This document shows positions 5,165 through 15,727 of a DNA stretch of 64,000 bases, piece by piece (the stretch's first letter is position 1; the number at the start of each line of letters is the position of its first letter). The position numbers and the translations under genes were made by a program. A model generated the notes under the pieces. That model saw only the letters and a program-made list of their open reading frames with translations, did no database searches and was not told the origin of the DNA. Origin of the DNA: Rhodobacterales bacterium LSUCC0387 (lineage in GTDB: Bacteria; Pseudomonadota; Alphaproteobacteria; Rhodobacterales; Rhodobacteraceae); contig WVSR01000001.1 in NCBI GenBank assembly GCA_015689775.1, forward strand, positions 124,001-188,000. The letters are read 5' to 3'.

Positions 5165-6589
5165 ATGACCAAAGACCCCACCCAAAGATTATTTGCAGAT
5201 GATGCACGCAGCAATTGGGTGCGATTGGAGACGCTGTTGCTGTTGCGCTGGTTGGCCATCATTGGCCAAACTATCACAGTCGCCATTGCCGCCTATTTCA
5301 TCGGCCTAAGGGTGGAATTGGGCCTGTGCTTTTTGGCCATTGGCGCGAGCGTCATTTCCAATCTTGTCGCGATGGCGATTTTCCCACGCAGCCAGAGATT
5401 GTCTGATCGCGATGCGATGCTTACCCTTCTCTTTGACCTCACACAGCTGGGGTTTTTGCTGTTTCTGACAGGGGGTTTAAACAATCCTTTCGCCTTGTTG
5501 ATCTTGGCGCCTGTAACCATTTCGGCCACCGCGCTGACGCTAGGTTCAACCGTAATGCTTGGCGGGATTGCCATTGGTTTGATTACGGTTTTGGCCTTTT
5601 ACCATGTGCCGCTGCGCAGTCTGGACGGGTCAGTTCTACAGATCCCCCCTCTTTTCTTGCTTGGGTTTTGGACTGCGATTGTCATCGGCATCGTCTTTCT
5701 ATCCTCCTATGCGCGGCGAGTGACCAAAGAAACGCATTCGATGAATCAGGCTCTCTTGGCTACACAAATGGCCCTCGCGCGGGAACAAAAACTAACCGAC
5801 CTTGGGGGCGTGGTTGCTGCGGCGGCCCATGAACTGGGCACACCTTTAGCCACGATAAAACTTGTCTCTAGCGAATTGGCCGATGAACTAGCCAAGGCGT
5901 TGGCGAACCGCCCTGATCTATTCGAGGATGCAAAACTGATCCGTGATCAAGCAGATCGGTGTCGCGATATCCTCCATTCCATGGGGCGGGCGGGCAAAGA
6001 TGATTTGCAAATGCGCTCCGCCCCCTTTGGTGAGGTGCTCCGCGAAGCGGCGGAACCCCATGCTGATCGCGGTATTGACTTGCTCTATGATCTAGCGCCC
6101 GCCCTGCCCGATGTTGCAGATGAGGGCAGCGCCCCGCCTGTGATCTATCGCAAGCCTGAAATCATCCACGGCCTGCGCAATCTTGTCCAAAACGCCGTAG
6201 ACTTTGCCAATGCGACAGTCTGGATTGAGGCAGCATGGGATTTGGCCGAAATCCGTCTTTGCGTCATTGACGATGGCGCAGGCTTTCCCCCCGAGGTATT
6301 AAGCAGGCTTGGCGATCCATTTTTGCGCCGCCGCACAAGACAATCCACTAGCCCGCAACGTGCCGGGTATGAGGGCATGGGTCTTGGCCTATTTATCGCC
6401 AAAACCCTTTTAGAGCGTTCAGGCGCGCGGGTCAGCTTTCGCAATTCCAGCGACCCATTCCTGACGGAATCCGAAAAAGGCGCCAAGCGCGGCGCGGTGG
6501 TTGAGGTTGTTTGGCCAAAGTCGCGCATTTGTTTATCCGAAGAAGAACGAAATACACCTCTAGGACAAAACAAACCTTTTTCTCCGTGA
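5165..6589 (+). CDS. regB: Redox sensor histidine kinase RegB/PrrB
   Basis: 474 residues. Six hydrophobic segments fill residues 20-185, with the quinone-sensing heptad GGLNNPF at 103-109. The phosphorylated histidine is H222 (AAAHELGTPLATIKL), and the redox-active cysteine is C266 (DQADRCRDIL). The ATP-binding N, G1 and G2 boxes follow (NLVQNAVDFA, DDGAGFPP, GMGLGLFIA). The protein senses quinone redox state and phosphorylates RegA. It is divergently transcribed from senC-regA across about 90 bases. All known sensory residues are intact, so it should be functional. Confidence 0.97.
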   Translation: MTKDPTQRLFADDARSNWVRLETLLLLRWLAIIGQTITVAIAAYFIGLRVELGLCFLAIGASVISNLVAMAIFPRSQRLSDRDAMLTLLFDLTQLGFLLFLTGGLNNPFALLILAPVTISATALTLGSTVMLGGIAIGLITVLAFYHVPLRSLDGSVLQIPPLFLLGFWTAIVIGIVFLSSYARRVTKETHSMNQALLATQMALAREQKLTDLGGVVAAAAHELGTPLATIKLVSSELADELAKALANRPDLFEDAKLIRDQADRCRDILHSMGRAGKDDLQMRSAPFGEVLREAAEPHADRGIDLLYDLAPALPDVADEGSAPPVIYRKPEIIHGLRNLVQNAVDFANATVWIEAAWDLAEIRLCVIDDGAGFPPEVLSRLGDPFLRRRTRQSTSPQRAGYEGMGLGLFIAKTLLERSGARVSFRNSSDPFLTESEKGAKRGAVVEVVWPKSRICLSEEERNTPLGQNKPFSP

Positions 6590-6747: not shown

Positions 6748-7073
6748 ATGGCCGCTATCGGCGCAAACCCGCTATTCATTGTCGGTGGTGTCGGCTCCTT
6801 GGCGGCTCTGGTGGTCAGCCTGCTGGTTCAGTGTGTCATTTTACAACAAGGCCACAGATTAGTATTTGATGGACCCCGAGGATCACGCAGGCGCTTGGCG
6901 CAATCTTGCCCTAGTCTTAAAGCATCTGCACCCAGATATCCGCCGCAAGCGGCTTAACCCAATGGCGAGATACGGGCAACTTCACCAATCACATTGCCGA
7001 TGAACTGCGCAACATCACAAATCAGATAAATAACGAAAGCATAACCCTTCGCTATGGCTTGCGCCCCGTATGA
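6748..7073 (+). pseudogene. Possible frameshifted small membrane-protein gene
   Basis: A strong GGGAGG site precedes an ATG at 6748. The first frame encodes one membrane helix (GGVGSLAALVVSLLVQCVIL) and then degenerates to arginine-rich sequence after about residue 41. From 6872 a second frame reads DPEDHAGAWRNLALVLKHLH then IRRKRLNPMARYG, and from 6976 the third frame reads NFTNHIADELRNITNQI and ends at the TGA 7071-7073. Removing one G near 6871 and one near 6974-6976 joins them into a protein of about 107 residues. I do not recognise the family. It could instead be an intact 69-residue product followed by non-coding DNA. Confidence 0.35.
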
Positions 7074-7093
7074 TCCCTTGTAAACTTGACCTA

Positions 7094-7624
7094 ATGTCTG
7101 ATGGATCCACTGCACCCCTCTCTGATTTGCCTCCCTGCCATGCGCATCTGCGCTTGGCTTCGCCCGAAGCCATGTCAGAATTTGCCCAAGCCCTCGCACC
7201 ACTACTGGAACCAGGCGATGTTTTGGCGCTTTCTGGTGATCTCGGCGCAGGTAAAACCCATTTCGCGCGTGGGGTGATCCGCACCCGACTGGCACAAATC
7301 GGACGCGTGGAGGACATACCCTCCCCAAGCTTTACTTTGGTACAAATCTACGAGGCACACCCGTGTGAGATTTGGCATGTTGATCTGTATCGCCTCAGTG
7401 ATCCGCGCGATGTGGATGAACTGGGGCTCATAGATGCGTTTGAAACCGAAATTTGCCTCATCGAATGGCCCGAACGGATGATGACCGATCTGCCAACACG
7501 CACAATCTGGCTTTCGTTTATCTATGATCAAAGCGCCCCTGATCAGCGCCACATCAGGCTATGCGCTTACCAAGATCATCCCAAACTCCCGCAACTTTGC
7601 GCCTTGGCCGAGAGGTATGCATGA
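7094..7624 (+). CDS. tsaE: tRNA t6A37 biosynthesis ATPase TsaE
   Basis: 176 residues. TsaE is the P-loop ATPase that works with TsaB and TsaD to install threonylcarbamoyl on A37 of ANN-decoding tRNAs. The Walker A loop SGDLGAGKT, the PSPSFTLVQIYE segment, HVDLYRL and the LIEWPERM signature are all present. The ATG at 7094 was chosen by alignment of the N-terminus; an ATG 24 bases upstream is in frame but adds nothing conserved. Its stop overlaps the next start as ATGA, making it the first gene of a coupled run through addA. Confidence 0.95.
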   Translation: MSDGSTAPLSDLPPCHAHLRLASPEAMSEFAQALAPLLEPGDVLALSGDLGAGKTHFARGVIRTRLAQIGRVEDIPSPSFTLVQIYEAHPCEIWHVDLYRLSDPRDVDELGLIDAFETEICLIEWPERMMTDLPTRTIWLSFIYDQSAPDQRHIRLCAYQDHPKLPQLCALAERYA

Positions 7625-9300
7625 CTACGCTCTCACCAGAGGCGCGCACTTTTCTTGACCGCATGGGATGGGGCATGGCGAAGCCAAGTCCCGTTGCAGG
7701 CGATGCTTCAGCGCGCAGCTATACCCGCCTACATCTCTCAGACAACTATAGTGCAGTTTTTATGCAAACGCCTAAGAGCGAGATCCAAAGCCAAGCGGCG
7801 TTTTGCGATGTATCGGCCTATTTGCGCGGTTTAGGAGTATCAGCCCCGACAGTTCTTGGCGAAGATGCTGTTTCAGGCTTCCTTTTGGTTGAGGATTTTG
7901 GTGATCAAACCTACAGCGCAATTTTGGATCAAGGCCTCACTCGTGAAGTCGAGCTTTATCGCACCGCGCATGATGTTTTGGCGGTTTTGGCGCGGACAGG
8001 AGCAATGGGTGGGTTGCCCATTTTAGCCGCCTCAGAATTGGCCCGATTGACGGCAGTCACCTTTGAAGAATTGCCCGAAGGCCACGCGCTGAAATGTGAA
8101 CAAGTCACCTTTCAAAACGACCTCCAAGGTCTTGCAACATGGATCTTACGGGGCGTGCCTGTGACAGTGTTGCGCGATTTCCATGCGGGAAATCTGATTT
8201 GGCTAGCTAACCGCACAGGGCTGCAACGTACAGGCGTTATTGATTTTCAAGACGCACTCTGCGGCCCCAAGGGATATGACCTCGTCTCGCTGATTGATGA
8301 TGCACGGCGTGATCTGTCGATTGAATTGCGCACCACATTGATCCGCGATCATGCGCATATTTTGAACATCAGCGAAGATGATATGATCCTGAGGACGAGT
8401 TTGCTATCGCTGCAACGCAACTTCCGTATTTTGGGGCTGTTCCGCCGCCTCGCGCGAACAGGGAAACCGGTCTATCTGCGGCATATGCCACGAGTTGCGG
8501 CCCATGTTCTTCGCGCTGTAGACCATCCAAGGCTTGCGCCTTTGGCCGCAACAGCGCGTGCGATCTGCGCGCATTACCTGCAGTCCACCGCCGATCATGC
8601 CCCCCGCGGCGCAATGATCTTGGCTGCAGGATTTGGTACGCGTATGGGGGCGTTAACGAAAGCCACACCAAAGCCATTGTTGCCTGTGGCAGGACGGGCC
8701 TTGATTGACCATGCGCTCGATGTTGCTCAGGGGGAGCATGCCGCACCTTGCGTAATCAACACCCATTTTCACGCCGATCAAATGCGCCACCATTTGCGCA
8801 ACCACGAGGTCATCCTCAGCGAAGAGCAGCCAGAGATTTTGGATTCGGGCGGCGGTATTCGCCATGCCCTGCGCTATTTTTCGGATAGTGCGATTTTTAC
8901 GCTGAATTCTGACAATGTTTGGACGGGCCAAAATCCCTTTGCCACGCTGTCCGCCGCTTGGCGCCCCACAGAAATGGACGCGCTGATGCTACTCATCCCA
9001 CGGGATCAGGCCACAGGCCGTCAGGGGGATGGTGACTTGGGCCTTGATGCCACGGGGCGGGTTTTGTTTGACGATCCCAAAAAGCCCTATGTGTTCACAG
9101 GCGCGCAAATCCTAAAGACAGCACCAATCGCTGCCATGGATATCCCCAAATTCGGCCTTCGGATGCTGTGGGAAACCTTTGCGCGAGAGGGGCGGCTGTT
9201 TGGTGTCATCCATCTGGGCGGATGGGCCGATGTTGGGCATCCAGAGGGGATCACGGCAGCAGAAGACTTGCTTGCCATGGAAAAGGCCGCCGTCACATGA
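7621..9300 (+). CDS. AmgK-MurU fusion: sugar kinase and MurNAc-1-P uridylyltransferase
   Basis: 559 residues combining two enzymes that are usually separate neighbours. Residues 1 to about 328 are an aminoglycoside-phosphotransferase-fold kinase (VAGDASARSYTRL, catalytic loop LRDFHAGNL, metal loop GVIDFQDA) like AmgK, the anomeric MurNAc/GlcNAc kinase. Residues 332-559 are a nucleotidyltransferase (MILAAGFGTRMG, KPLLPVAG, LNSDN) like MurU. Together they recycle cell-wall MurNAc to UDP-MurNAc, bypassing de novo synthesis. The join crosses a run of six C at 8600-8605; with five C the kinase would end in a TGA overlapping the MurU ATG at 8614 as ATGA. The fusion may therefore be real, recent or an artefact. 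It is coupled to tsaE and addB by ATGA overlaps. Confidence 0.88.
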   Translation: MTTLSPEARTFLDRMGWGMAKPSPVAGDASARSYTRLHLSDNYSAVFMQTPKSEIQSQAAFCDVSAYLRGLGVSAPTVLGEDAVSGFLLVEDFGDQTYSAILDQGLTREVELYRTAHDVLAVLARTGAMGGLPILAASELARLTAVTFEELPEGHALKCEQVTFQNDLQGLATWILRGVPVTVLRDFHAGNLIWLANRTGLQRTGVIDFQDALCGPKGYDLVSLIDDARRDLSIELRTTLIRDHAHILNISEDDMILRTSLLSLQRNFRILGLFRRLARTGKPVYLRHMPRVAAHVLRAVDHPRLAPLAATARAICAHYLQSTADHAPRGAMILAAGFGTRMGALTKATPKPLLPVAGRALIDHALDVAQGEHAAPCVINTHFHADQMRHHLRNHEVILSEEQPEILDSGGGIRHALRYFSDSAIFTLNSDNVWTGQNPFATLSAAWRPTEMDALMLLIPRDQATGRQGDGDLGLDATGRVLFDDPKKPYVFTGAQILKTAPIAAMDIPKFGLRMLWETFAREGRLFGVIHLGGWADVGHPEGITAAEDLLAMEKAAVT

Positions 9301-12275
9301 GCGTGCGAAACCTCTTTGCCACACCCATTGGGGTAGAGTTTACATCAGCATTGATCGCAGGGCTTGACGCACGGCTTACAGGGCAGCCACCCGAGGCGAT
9401 TGCGCGCGTGGAAATTTGGGTGAACTCCGCCCGAATGGAACGAAATTTGCGCACCCAATATCTGAGAAAAGAGGCGGCATTTTTACCCCGCATTCGGCCC
9501 TTCGAGGCCATGGCCCATCTGCCTGATTTGGGCGGCATGGCGCAGCCTGCCTCCGATTTACGGCTGCGTTTGCATCTGGCTCAACTGGTCGGGCGGCTTT
9601 TGGATGCAGCCCCGGATTTAGCACCGCGTGCTTCGATCTGGTCGCTTGCCGATAGCCTTGCCGATCTGTTGGCGGAAATGCACGAGGAACGGGTCGCGCC
9701 CGAGGTGCTAGAGCGACTGAATGTCGAAGGACATTCAGAACATTGGCAGCGCAATCTAGAGTTCATAAAAATCCTGCGGCACTATTTTGAGGACAATCCC
9801 GAGCTGCTCACCCAAGCTGCACGCCAAAGCAGTTTGATTGATCGTTTAGCGCAACATTGGCAGGACAACCCACCTGACCATCCCGTGATTATTGCGGGCT
9901 CAACAGGGTCGCGCGGGGCTACCGCGCGTCTGATGAAGGCGGTGGCGGGGCTTGAGCGCGGTGCGGTGGTTTTGCCAGGGCTGGATTATGATCTACCGCA
10001 CGAGATTTGGCATGCACTTTTGTCGGGCGGTGGCCCCACAGGCGGCCTGACGGGGCAAGACCATCCGCAATACCGATTGGCAAAATTTGCGCATAACTTG
10101 AATGTGAACCCTTGGGAAATCCCCCGTTGGATTGAAACCACGCCCCATAATCAAAACCGCAATCGCCTTGTATCTCTAGCCCTAAGACCTGCCCCACAAA
10201 CGGATCAATGGCTTGAGGAAGGGCCAAAACTTAACGATCCCCAAGGCGCTCTGCGCGATGTGATCTTGATTGAAGCTGAAACCCCGCGCGAGGAGGCGAT
10301 GAGCATCGCCCTCGGACTGCGTCACGCCATCGAAGCGGACAAACGGGTTGCGTTAATATGCCCAGATCGGATTTTGGTGCGTCAGGCCTGTGCCATCCTT
10401 GCCAGATGGTCGCTCTATCCTGACGATTCTGCAGGCGTGCCCTTGGGGGAAACGGCAACGGGGCGCTTCTTGCGCCATGTTAGTGATCTGATGCTTGCGC
10501 CTTTGACGGGCGAACACTTGTTGATCATGCTCAAACACCCCCTTTGTCACTCTGGCGGCGAAGATCGGGGCGCGCATCTGCGCCGCACCCGTGAGCTAGA
10601 ACAAAAGATGCGGCGGTTTCTGTGGGCGTTCCCGAAACGATCTCAGATTATGGATTGGGCCGCAGAGCAAACCGATGATCCAGACCTGATCATTTGGGCA
10701 GACTGGGTTTGCCGCGAATTGATAGACCGGCCCGTCTTGCCACAATCAGGTGCGATGGTTGAGTTCGTGCGCGCCCATATCGCTTGGGCCGAGCGTTTGG
10801 CAGCGGGCCCTCAGGCCACAACCGAGGCTGAAACATCGGGCGCACTTTGGCGCCAAAATGCGGGCGAAGAGGCGCTGCGCCTGATGAACCGCTTGGGCGA
10901 AGAAGCCGATGCCGCAGGCGCAGTGAGCTTGCGTGATTATCGTGACCTCTTTTCTGGCATCCTCAGCGAGGCCCTTTTGCGCAACCCCGTTCGACCACAC
11001 GCAGATCTGTTGATCTGGGGGCCGATGGAGGCGCGGGTGCAAGGCGCAAATCTCTTAATCCTTGCCGGCCTGAATGAAGGGGTTTGGCCCAATTCGAGCG
11101 ACGCTGATCCATGGCTTAATCGCACCATGCGGGCTGAGGCGGGGTTGCGCCTCCCAGATCGGCAGATCGGCCTTGCCGCGCATGATTTCCAACAGGCACT
11201 CGGCGCGCAAGAAGTTTGGCTCACCCGTGCAAAACGCGATGCAGAGTCCGCCACCATCCCGTCCCGATGGCTCAACCGCTTGGTGAACCTTCTGCGAGGC
11301 AGTAGCGATGCAAGCCGCACGGCCTTGAGTGAAATGGCCGAACGAGGCGCGTTTTGGTTAAGCCTTGCCGCAGAGATCGATAGGCCAGAGGCGCAAGACC
11401 TAAAGCCACGCGCCAAACGACCTGCCCCGAAGCCCCCCGCCGATGCGCGACCAAAATCCCTTTCGGTGACGCGCATAGAGACCCTCGTGCGCGACCCTTA
11501 TGCGATTTATGCCCGCTATGTATTGGGTCTTTATAAATTGGGCGAATTAAACGCCCTGCCCAATGCCGCAGATCGGGGAACCGCGCTACACCGCGTGTTG
11601 GAGCGCTTCGTTGACCAATGCCGCAGTGCCGAAGATTTCGGCGACCTGACATCTGCCCAAACAAAACTTTTGACCATGGCCGATGAGGTATTTGCCACAG
11701 ATGTCCCATGGCCCTCGGCCCAACGGATGTGGCGCGCCAAGGTCGTTAAATTCGCAGATTGGTTTCTTGAAGGAGAAGCGAAGCGGCGCCAAACCCAAAC
11801 CCCTGAATTGCTTGAGGCCAAAGGATCTTGGCCGATTGCCGAAATTGATTTCACCCTCACAGGCAGTGCAGATCGAATTGACCGCGATCAAAACGGGAAT
11901 TTATGGATTTACGACTATAAGACAGGATCCGCTCCAACGGCCAAGCAAGAGGCGAACTTTACGAAGCAACTTTGGCTTGAGGCGTTGATGGCCGAAGCGG
12001 GCGCGTTTACGGGCAAACCTGAAACCGTTGTAGGTCACGGCTATCTTGCACTTGGGAAACAATCGGATGGCAGCGATTACATCACTGCAGATGATCTGCG
12101 CGGCATGTATGACAGCTTCCTGACACTCATCCGCGCCTATCAGTCACCCGACAAAGGCTATATCTCGCGGCGTGCCGTGTTTGATCAAAATTTTGACGGC
12201 GATTATGATCACCTCGCGCGCTACGGGGAATGGGACGAAACAGAGCTTCCACCACAGGAGGCTGATCCAGAATGA
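9297..12275 (+). CDS. addB: Double-strand break repair protein AddB
   Basis: 992 residues, the alphaproteobacterial AddB type. It is the partner of AddA in the helicase-nuclease that resects double-strand breaks and loads RecA, replacing RecBCD. The N-terminal two thirds is a divergent inactivated helicase-like region. The C-terminal PD-(D/E)XK nuclease shows EIDFTLTGSADRID and IYDYKTGSAP with the catalytic D and K, then a Q-containing helix. The start ATG at 9297 overlaps the preceding TGA; an upstream in-frame ATG at 9168 would read antisense-like sequence within murU. It overlaps addA by four bases. Confidence 0.94.
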   Translation: MSVRNLFATPIGVEFTSALIAGLDARLTGQPPEAIARVEIWVNSARMERNLRTQYLRKEAAFLPRIRPFEAMAHLPDLGGMAQPASDLRLRLHLAQLVGRLLDAAPDLAPRASIWSLADSLADLLAEMHEERVAPEVLERLNVEGHSEHWQRNLEFIKILRHYFEDNPELLTQAARQSSLIDRLAQHWQDNPPDHPVIIAGSTGSRGATARLMKAVAGLERGAVVLPGLDYDLPHEIWHALLSGGGPTGGLTGQDHPQYRLAKFAHNLNVNPWEIPRWIETTPHNQNRNRLVSLALRPAPQTDQWLEEGPKLNDPQGALRDVILIEAETPREEAMSIALGLRHAIEADKRVALICPDRILVRQACAILARWSLYPDDSAGVPLGETATGRFLRHVSDLMLAPLTGEHLLIMLKHPLCHSGGEDRGAHLRRTRELEQKMRRFLWAFPKRSQIMDWAAEQTDDPDLIIWADWVCRELIDRPVLPQSGAMVEFVRAHIAWAERLAAGPQATTEAETSGALWRQNAGEEALRLMNRLGEEADAAGAVSLRDYRDLFSGILSEALLRNPVRPHADLLIWGPMEARVQGANLLILAGLNEGVWPNSSDADPWLNRTMRAEAGLRLPDRQIGLAAHDFQQALGAQEVWLTRAKRDAESATIPSRWLNRLVNLLRGSSDASRTALSEMAERGAFWLSLAAEIDRPEAQDLKPRAKRPAPKPPADARPKSLSVTRIETLVRDPYAIYARYVLGLYKLGELNALPNAADRGTALHRVLERFVDQCRSAEDFGDLTSAQTKLLTMADEVFATDVPWPSAQRMWRAKVVKFADWFLEGEAKRRQTQTPELLEAKGSWPIAEIDFTLTGSADRIDRDQNGNLWIYDYKTGSAPTAKQEANFTKQLWLEALMAEAGAFTGKPETVVGHGYLALGKQSDGSDYITADDLRGMYDSFLTLIRAYQSPDKGYISRRAVFDQNFDGDYDHLARYGEWDETELPPQEADPE

Positions 12276-15200
12276 CCCTGACGCCCCCAAAATTTGACGA
12301 AGCCACGCTGGCGCAGGTGATTTCAGCGGATCCTTTGCGCTCAACTTGGCTATCAGCCAATGCTGGCTCTGGAAAGACGCGGGTTCTGACAGATCGCGTA
12401 TCGCGCCTCTTGCTGCAATCTGTGCCGCCTGAACGGATTTTATGCCTGACCTATACCAAGGCTGCCGCGGCAGAGATGCAAAACCGCCTTTTCTCTCAAC
12501 TTGGCACATGGGCCATGTTGGCCGATGCCGAGTTAATCAAAGCCTTGGCGAAATTAGGGGTAGCCAAGGACGACCTTGGCACAGACACGCTCGCCCATGC
12601 CCGCACGCTGTTTGCGCGGGCGGTTGAGGCACCGGGCGGTTTGAAAATCCAGACAATCCACTCCTTTTGCGCCTCAGTTTTGCGCCGCTTTCCTGTTGAG
12701 GCGCAAATATCGCCCGCCTTTGAGGAAATGGACGATCGCGACCAGACCGACCTCATCTCGGAAATCCTCGAAGATATGGCCACCGATAGTCTCGGACAGG
12801 GCCGTATCGCATTGGATGCGGTCGCCCCGTTTGTGTCTGACCTCGATGGGCACGAACTGGCCAAGGCGGTCATCAACAAGCGAGAGGCGTTTGATCCTGC
12901 CGCCACGGACGCCCAACTGCGCCAATTTTTTGAGCTTGGAACCAAGACCTTTGCAGATCTGATCTCTGAGACATTCATGGGGGATGAACAGGCGCTTTGC
13001 GATAAATTAGCCAAGCTTTTGAGCTATGAGAACTACAGTCAAAAAAGGCCCAAAGCCAAGTTAGAAACCTATGATTGGTCAAAGCACAGCTTGGCTTCCA
13101 TCGCCGCATTGGAAGATATTTTCGTTATCGGGACAACTGCGAAAAACAATCCAGATCAGGCCAGAGGCGACACAATTTTTAACTCAGATGTGCGCAAGGA
13201 AATGGGCGATGATTTCCCTGCACTTTGTGATTTCATGGAGCGGCTTGCAACAGCGCGGCAGACCCGCCGCGCCTTGATCATGTTTGAAAAATCAAACGCG
13301 CTGCATCAATTCGCGGCAGAGTTTCTCACCCGATATGATCGCGCCAAGGAACGGCGCGGTTGGCTTGATTTTGACGACCTGATCCGTCTGACCAATCGAC
13401 TTTTGACCAAAACCAGTCTGGCCCAATGGGTGTTGTTCCGCCTTGATGGCGGCATCGACCATATGCTTGTGGATGAGGCGCAAGATACCTCTCCCGCGCA
13501 ATGGCAGATCATTGCAAAACTGGCTGAAGAATTTGCGGCGGGCCAATCTGCGCGCAATGGTTTGACCCGGACGATTTTCGTTGTGGGGGATAAGAAGCAA
13601 TCCATCTATTCTTTCCAAGGGGCCGACCCTGAAGGGTTTGATCGCATGCGCGATGAGTTTGATCATCGCCTTGAAGCGGTGCAATCAAAACTCCATAAAA
13701 ACGTACTGAAATATTCCTTCCGTTCGGCGCCAAGCATTTTGCAATTGGTTGACCGCGTTGCCACAGATCAAGCCTATGCGGGTTTGGGCCAAGATGTGGA
13801 ACACGCAGCCTATTTTAGCGACCTCCCCGGACGGGTGGATATTTGGCCTGCAATTCCTAAAACCGAAAACGCGGATATGCCCGACTGGGACAGCCCCGTG
13901 GATTTGATTTATGACAGCCACCACACCGTGATTTTGGCTGATCAAATCGCTGATTTCATCGCGCATAAAATCAACTCAAAGCAGATGATCCGCGCCAAGG
14001 GTAAAGACCCGCGTCCCGTGCGGCCGCGTGATTTTTTGATCTTGCTGCGCAAGCGCAGTGATTTATTCCACCAAATCATTCGCGCACTCAAATCACAGAA
14101 TTTGCCCATCATGGGCGCGGATCGCCTGCGCATCAGCGCAGAATTGGCTGTGCGCGATCTCACGGCTTTGATGAACTTTCTGGCAACGCCAGAAGACGAC
14201 CTCTCACTGGCCGCCTTTTTGCGCTCTCCCCTTGGCGGTTTGAGCGAAGACCAACTTTACGAGTTAGCCCATGGCAGGGCGGGCACGCTGTGGCAGGCGC
14301 TCTCTAACCACTCTGCTTACGCGGGGATCGTGTCCACGCTGCGGGATTTGCGGAACAAGGCCGATTTTGAGAGGCCCTACGAGATTCTGGAAAACATCCT
14401 CACCCAAAAAGGTGGCCGGCGCGCTTTGATTGCGCGGTTGGGTCAAGAGGCCGAGGATGGGATCAACAGCCTGCTGCAACAGGCGATGAGCTATGAGCGC
14501 CATGACGTGCCTAGCATTGCGGGATTTGCTGCATGGCTTCGGCGCGGGGATGTGACCATCAAGCGGGACATGTCAGGGGATGATGACCAAATCCGCGTCA
14601 TGTCCATTCACGGGGCCAAGGGTTTAGAAGCCCCGATTGTGATACTGCCTGATACGGCGCGACATGGTAATCGCGACGGCGGTGGGGTTAATGTGCTTCA
14701 ACCCAAAGATGGGCCACTGATTTGGGCCAATTCTTCGGACGACTTGGGTGCCGATCTGCGCGAAGTCAGCGGGGCGCGCAAAGCCGCGCAGCAGGAGGAA
14801 GAAAACCGCCTGCTTTACGTTGCAATGACCCGCGCAGAGACTTGGTTGGTCATCGCAGCGGCTGGTGACCTATCAGCAAAGAAGGGCGACACAATATGTT
14901 GGTATGATCAAATTCGCGCCGCAGCTGAAAGCCTGCCCAATGTGCAGGCCATAGACATGGCAGGGCAAACGGGTCTGCGACTAGAGAACGGCAATTGGGA
15001 TAGTCCCGCTCACAGCGCAGCTGAACCTGCCCCGCCTCAAGGTATTTCTGCGGAGGTGCAAGCCGCGCTATCCTCTTGGGCGCGCCAAGCGCCGCCCCCA
15101 AAGACGAAAGACAAACCTGCGCTCAGCCCATCAGATTTGGGGGAGACGTCCAAACCCACTCCTCAAGAGGCAGCTCTCAAGACCGATTGGCGCGATGTGG

Positions 15201-15727
15201 AGACAGCCAAACTGCGGGGGCGGCGTCTGCATCTTTTATTGGAGCATTTGCCCAAAACAACGCCCGCCGCATGGGCGGCAACCGCGCCCATGATTTTGGC
15301 GGCAGAGGGGGATTGCAACTCAGAAGAGCGCGCCGCCCTTTTCAGCGAGGCACACCGCATTCTAACCGACCCCAATCTGCGTGCCCTGTTTGAGGGGGAT
15401 GCATTGGCCGAAGTGCCGCTGACAGCCTTTAGCAAAACATTGAACCATCAGGTCTATGGTGTGATTGATCGCTTGATCCTGCGCGATGACCAAGTGTTGG
15501 CAGTAGATTTCAAATCCAATCAAATCGTGCCGCAAAGCCCTGCTGATGTGTCCGAAGGCTATTTGCGCCAAATGGCGGCCTACGACGAAATGCTCAGGGC
15601 GCTTTATCCCACGCGGGCCGTAAAATTGGCCATTTTGTGGACAAGCGGGCCAAGCTTGATGGAACTGCCAAATGATCTGTTAGAACAAGCGCTGCAAAGA
15701 GCCGCAGGAACAGGCGTGGGTTCTTGA
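12272..15727 (+). CDS. addA: Double-strand break repair helicase-nuclease AddA
   Basis: 1151 residues, UvrD/Rep-type superfamily 1 helicase with a fused RecB-like nuclease. Walker A is [12 protein letters not shown] near residue 28, helicase motif II is [13 protein letters not shown], motif [16 protein letters not shown], motif [13 protein letters not shown] and motif [12 protein letters not shown]. The C-terminal nuclease carries GVIDRLIL and AVDFKSNQ with the metal-binding D and K. AddA unwinds and degrades broken DNA ends with AddB. ATG 12272 lies in an ATGA overlap with addB, supporting stoichiometric coupled synthesis. Confidence 0.96.

Follow-up and report, generated by a model that had tools for sequence, protein, structure and literature searches.

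To date, the anomeric sugar kinase AmgK and the uridylyltransferase MurU have been described in Pseudomonas, Caulobacter (CCNA_03649/03650) and Agrobacterium (Atu0026/Atu0025), and in the openly accessible portions of these reports they are the products of two genes (PMC5371407, PMC13046382, PMC9790009). Published tools, as far as their accessible text goes, also carry amgK and murU side by side (PMC5411481, PMC7012605, PMC9764285), and the pair has served to introduce labelled MurNAc into the walls of bacteria (PMC5411481). No natural AmgK–MurU fusion was found in the literature searched, which consisted mostly of papers available without subscription. By the accessible published descriptions, these separate pairs and the locus reported here are alike in domains and predicted reactions, whereas the present locus encodes one protein in which a linker of about 8 residues joins the two domains. 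The fusion is a modest variation on the known AmgK–MurU pathway.

The window, a 64,000-nucleotide stretch of DNA from Rhodobacterales bacterium LSUCC0387, contains a single unbroken frame that runs on the forward strand from ATG 7621 to TGA 9298–9300 and comprises 559 codons before the stop (Table 1). It gives the only full-length match to the fusion in its own genome (G000). An earlier note on this DNA had read the kinase and the uridylyltransferase as one 559-residue protein, and this reading is borne out by the unbroken frame and by two kinds of domain that score above their Pfam gathering cut-offs: APH (PF01636, residues 23–243; 75.1 vs. 23.2 bits) and, at residues 331–456, the NTP transferases PF12804 (56.0 vs. 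27.0 bits) and PF00483 (48.6 vs. 21.2 bits). Among 79 related loci, the best of 534 by tblastn, a same-strand TsaE is present in 75 and a same-strand AddB in 78, so that nearly all of these named loci share the tsaE and addB neighbours, and the order of the two genes is the same in the five related loci that were looked at. Further upstream, and in the same orientation as the recycling genes and addAB, lies a gene for a RegB redox sensor kinase (5165–6589).

Table 1. Features of the amgK-murU locus (positions in the window).
Feature	Position	Strand	Remarks
tsaE	7070..7624	+	TIGR00150 above cut-off; ATGA overlap with amgK start, 7621–7624
GAGAGG, Shine-Dalgarno-like	7610..7615	+	before kinase ATG 7621
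amgK-murU fused gene	7621..9300	+	single frame, 559 aa; fusion in 4/4 genus members
AmgK-like anomeric sugar kinase domain, residues 1–322	7621..8586	+	Pfam APH, PDB 3csv, AlphaFold2 model; boundary is the end of helix 303–322
Linker, residues 323–330	8587..8610	+	between last kinase helix and first MurU strand
C6 run, codons GCC CCC CGC (Ala-Pro-Arg)	8600..8605	+	present in G000 and G002; absent from G003 and G001
MurU-like uridylyltransferase domain	8614..9297	+	starts at conserved Met, residue 332, of the M-I-L-A-A-G strand
Conserved MurU Met ATG	8614–8616	+	
TGA in +1 frame	8615..8617	+	outside kinase frame; by-product of ATG ATC (Met-Ile)
addB	9297..12275	+	TIGR02786 above cut-off; ATGA overlap with murU stop, 9297–9300
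addA	12272..15727	+	TIGR02784 above cut-off

The fusion was modeled with AlphaFold2 from a 44-row alignment comprising the window protein, 13 of the 17 named fused proteins, 15 of 60 kinases and 15 of 60 MurU proteins. The model (mean pLDDT 93.9, pTM 0.78) shows a kinase that ends with its last helix, a loop, and then a MurU strand (residues 331–334); the linker lies within the blocks of lowest confidence (block means 73 and 81). The closest solved structure to the AmgK half is PDB 3csv, a putative aminoglycoside phosphotransferase from Silicibacter sp. TM1040 (E 9.3e-57 as a PDB match; Foldseek E 4.8e-24), which is probably itself an AmgK. Among solved structures, the C-terminal half is matched best by MurU enzymes (4y7t and 8hhd; Foldseek E 7.0e-16 against 4y7t). 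Yet, 3csv, 4y7t and 8hhd are each single-domain chains (333, 231 and 239 residues), in contrast to the two-domain window protein. The residues D28, R32, D186, N191 and D208, which we take to form the kinase core together with D211, are present in 29/29 kinase rows of the 44-row alignment, and D211 is found in 27/29. The MurU rows likewise retain A-A-G and G-T in 29/29 and D431 in 29/29, and R341 occurs in 36 of the 41 rows lettered at that position, with kinase-only tails counted in; residue 537 is D in 20 of the 29 MurU rows and H in the other 9. A-A-G-x-G-T-R is presumably the signature of MurU-like uridylyltransferases, along with a metal-binding Asp. With these domains, the N-terminal kinase would place a phosphate on C1 of recycled MurNAc, and the C-terminal domain would then transfer UMP from UTP to give UDP-MurNAc; these are the two final reactions of MurNAc salvage. 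A single translated product of about 60 kDa would be expected.

The unbroken fusion is present in all four genomes of the genus examined (G000–G003), and the three other proteins share 90, 67 and 67% identity with that of the window. Two of these genomes are Rhodobacteraceae bacterium XHP0102 (G003, locus L034) and the metagenome-assembled genome (MAG) Roseicyclus sp. M30B80 (G001, locus L035); XHP0102 carries no MAG label and may represent an isolate. The gene, its frame and its domains are thus conserved, which upholds the part of the earlier note that proposed a fixed event. Aligning the joint with relatives, a step which that note had also suggested, gave a gapless alignment of the four congeners with the fused frame in each; G003 and G001 carry AAC at the position of the window's CCC, with the length unchanged. 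Over the 32 codons that lead up to the MurU Met, 4/8, 14/26, 18/40 and 20/44 of the differences in four pairs fall at third positions. Although these positions still change most, at least half of the codons that changed encode a different residue, indicating that the linker region is loosely constrained.

The origin of the joint was examined with a tree of 150 AmgK+MurU pairs, built by a quick method and containing long branches that meet. The four congeners group together as a single clade (SH-aLRT 100) within a group of seven that includes the unfused loci L011, L121 and L122. In these three, the genes are separate, and the kinase stop overlaps a possible MurU start as ATGA, located 7, 4 and 6 codons, respectively, upstream of the conserved Met. 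Overlapping amgK-murU pairs of Rhodobacterales (L121 and L122, which lie outside the 79 named loci, and L058) are the closest sequences to the fusion; in this type, the kinase stop overlaps or precedes a MurU in another frame, whereas the gene at 7621–9300 has one frame throughout. The leader of L121 reads M-R-G-C-M-I-L-A-A-G, as against P-R-G-A-M-I-L-A-A-G in the window, and by a short alignment made by eye the position of the L121 start is CCC or AAC in the fused genus. Within about 70 bases upstream of the conserved Met, none of the four congeners has an in-frame start codon.

According to the earlier note, five C in place of six would end the kinase at the TGA that overlaps the MurU ATG as ATGA. 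Whether this would restore an ancestral junction was assessed with 109 unfused relatives, i.e., the rows with a recognised motif, 18 of the 127 unfused rows being left out for want of one. ATGA at the conserved Met is found in 33/109, but the kinase ends at that TGA in only 3/109, and the three nearest unfused relatives overlap upstream; ATGA at 8614 is therefore an unlikely ancestral junction. In the note's favor, the kinase stop overlaps the A of the conserved ATG in 55/109, although by one base and so in a different manner. Of the 109, 39 allow the conserved Met as a start with this one-base overlap and offer no four-base alternative. The ancestral start therefore need not have been the upstream one, and translation of the ancestral MurU may have begun at the conserved Met itself. 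Kinase tails of unequal length among the sister loci prevent the indel from being placed exactly.

Collectively, these comparisons suggest that an overlapping amgK-murU pair became fused, most likely once, in the ancestor of the genus. A net one-base (modulo 3) change near the overlap would have joined the frames, and MurU's own upstream start was probably lost then or later, its short leader becoming part of the linker. The best reading is that the fusion is old and fixed in the genus. Very probably, it is a genuine two-domain enzyme converting MurNAc to UDP-MurNAc that arose from a single ancestral joining of the frames of an overlapping pair.

A free MurU could also be made besides the fusion if translation started internally at ATG 8614 or resumed by re-entry, although this appears unlikely. 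The Met is conserved in all four congeners and, as described above, is a possible start with a one-base overlap in over a third of the unfused relatives. However, it sits at the first MurU strand and is present in 105/109 unfused relatives irrespective of where they start, which means that it could be conserved without serving as a start. The predicted anti-Shine-Dalgarno duplex has an energy of −7.1 kcal/mol before the kinase ATG but −1.7 kcal/mol before the MurU Met; 400 random positions gave a mean of −2.6 and a 5th percentile of −7.0 kcal/mol. No Shine-Dalgarno-like site was detected at the conserved Met in the four congeners (−1.5 to −3.0 kcal/mol). The AddB start also has a weak duplex (−3.5 kcal/mol), which suggests that weak sites may work here, so the lack of a Shine-Dalgarno site is compatible with an internal start at 8614. 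Re-entry is further disfavored since no kinase-frame stop lies nearby and there would be no termination to re-enter from.

Slightly less likely still is that the enzyme acts on a different sugar, e.g., GlcNAc or another hexosamine. The best-named NCBIfam models for the two halves are AmgK and MurU, and the scores fall below the equivalog cut-offs of both AmgK models (NF045698, 167.3 vs. 500 bits; NF045759, 83.6 vs. 550 bits) and both MurU models (NF045697, 172.8 vs. 370 bits; NF045761, 97.2 vs. 250 bits). In addition, MurU positions 343–344 are G-A, where R and P are commonest in the alignment (19 and 15 of the rows with letters, respectively). However, NF045698 is also missed by the unfused kinases of L058 (261.1) and L067 (224.5), two other Rhodobacterales loci, and by the fused L034 and L036, and the unfused MurU proteins of L058 (172.1) and L067 (172.9) fall below 370 for NF045697; the shortfall is therefore not particular to the fusion. 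Across 14 control genomes, NF045698 found matches in two and its cut-off was passed in one. Against another substrate, the neighboring genes in related loci agree with an amgK-murU pair, the solved structures closest to the C-terminal half are those of MurU enzymes, and AnmK scores above cut-off in the genome.

The genome also contains a HAD phosphatase (G000:C2:337448), the third best of 11 TIGR01449 matches and below the phosphoglycolate phosphatase cut-off, which adjoins a 456 aa nucleotidyltransferase frame at C2:336896 that is probably GlmU. In the accessible part of the Caulobacter report (PMC13046382), the locus tags of MupP and GlmU follow directly on one another; by analogy with this arrangement, the phosphatase might be guessed to be MupP, which, like AnmK, acts upstream of AmgK and MurU in the salvage pathway. 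MurNAc is reported to build up in Caulobacter without amgK (PMC13046382).

The letters around the joint are as the earlier note had described them: six C at 8600–8605, an out-of-frame TGA at 8615–8617, the MurU ATG at 8614, and ATGA junctions on both flanks. The claim that the fusion depends on one C is correct as arithmetic, but the run is not special in this respect. In a deletion scan over positions 8221–8613, loss of a single base at any of 95 positions (8519–8613) likewise brings the kinase to a stop at TGA 8615–8617; this TGA, with its ATGA, exists because the MurU Met precedes Ile (ATG ATC). CCCCCC occurs 30 times in the window, compared with 40.0 ± 8.1 in shuffles (both strands, overlaps counted). 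It is very unlikely that slippage at the run, which the note had offered as another option, gives rise to two products, the fusion and a kinase that terminates at TGA 8615. A kinase-only form made in the shifted frame would be complete, and in each of the four congeners the +1 frame contains no stop for 90 bases or more ahead of the conserved Met. However, the run is present in only two of them (the other two are fused with AAC for CCC), such runs are not enriched in the window relative to shuffles, and many other positions would give an identical outcome. Since the base change behind the original fusion cannot be pinpointed, it may or may not have lain in the C run; we consider the run incidental to the fusion.

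Homopolymers are prone to sequencing errors, and one base fewer would abolish the fusion; yet an error in sequencing or assembly, with a true genome carrying two genes, is excluded for practical purposes, since four genus assemblies, with the others at 67–90% identity to the window protein and two lacking the run, have the same frame and their 32 codons before the MurU Met vary by substitution only, with no in-frame stop.

Fusions of the same pair were also found elsewhere in Alphaproteobacteria. Loci were sampled only if both halves were present: 27 of 160 have one frame without a stop, 22 are in frame but interrupted, and 111 are in other frames. Removing 10 duplicates with identical halves left the 150 pairs of the tree, 23 of them fused in a sample enriched for fusions; fusions are similarly over-represented among the 79 named loci (17/79). 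The tree requires at least eight changes between fused and unfused states, six of which are forced by well-supported branches. Three fusion groups comprise several genomes, namely the present genus (4), a Hellea/Robiginitomaculum-type clade (13 rows) and Paracoccus (3/61 genomes). The Hellea/Robiginitomaculum-type MAGs and the three Paracoccus genomes have the same domain order in one frame as the present genus, but the Hellea-type and Paracoccus sanguinis fusions are located elsewhere on the tree and have different linkers. Five further changes each rest on one genome among those examined (Neomegalonema MAG L049, G511, G316, G575 and G372). These single-genome fusions could include errors; for G511, no second full fused match was found among five genomes of its family. 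Unbroken fusions are present in at least four genomes of the family sample (G000, G003, G020 and G042; 267 matching of 295 searched) and at least five of the class sample (G000, G511, G316, G575 and G372; 281 matching of 385 searched). Ten loci with suspiciously long frames from both samples were inspected for hidden fusions, and all ten proved to be separate genes.

Several individual loci deserve mention. In Paracoccus, the unfused L192 has ATG ACC at the MurU start, as against ACG GGT in the fused L189 (aligned by eye), which suggests that the start was again lost with fusion. In another Paracoccus locus, L190 (G689), matching ceases after residue 467 of 554 and the reading frame terminates at L190:3010, so that this fusion seems to end early in its MurU half. 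The fused gene of L041 (CALGZC010000070.1), titled as a Blastocatellia (Acidobacteriota) MAG, groups inside the Hellea clade, and the contig is likely misbinned. Separately, amgK and murU share a frame in the Hyphomonas-type loci L053–L056, L110 and L154, but a stop codon interrupts it about 30 bases upstream of MurU.

A wider reading, tentative at present, is that overlapping pairs have fused recurrently in Alphaproteobacteria with loss of the MurU start, giving a bifunctional enzyme in which MurNAc-1-phosphate would be handed over or the two activities held at a fixed 1:1 ratio. A naturally fused enzyme could serve as a simpler tool, and it would permit asking whether joined active sites help flux. 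The recurrence of fusion in one overlapping pair shows a route from overlapping genes to a single enzyme.
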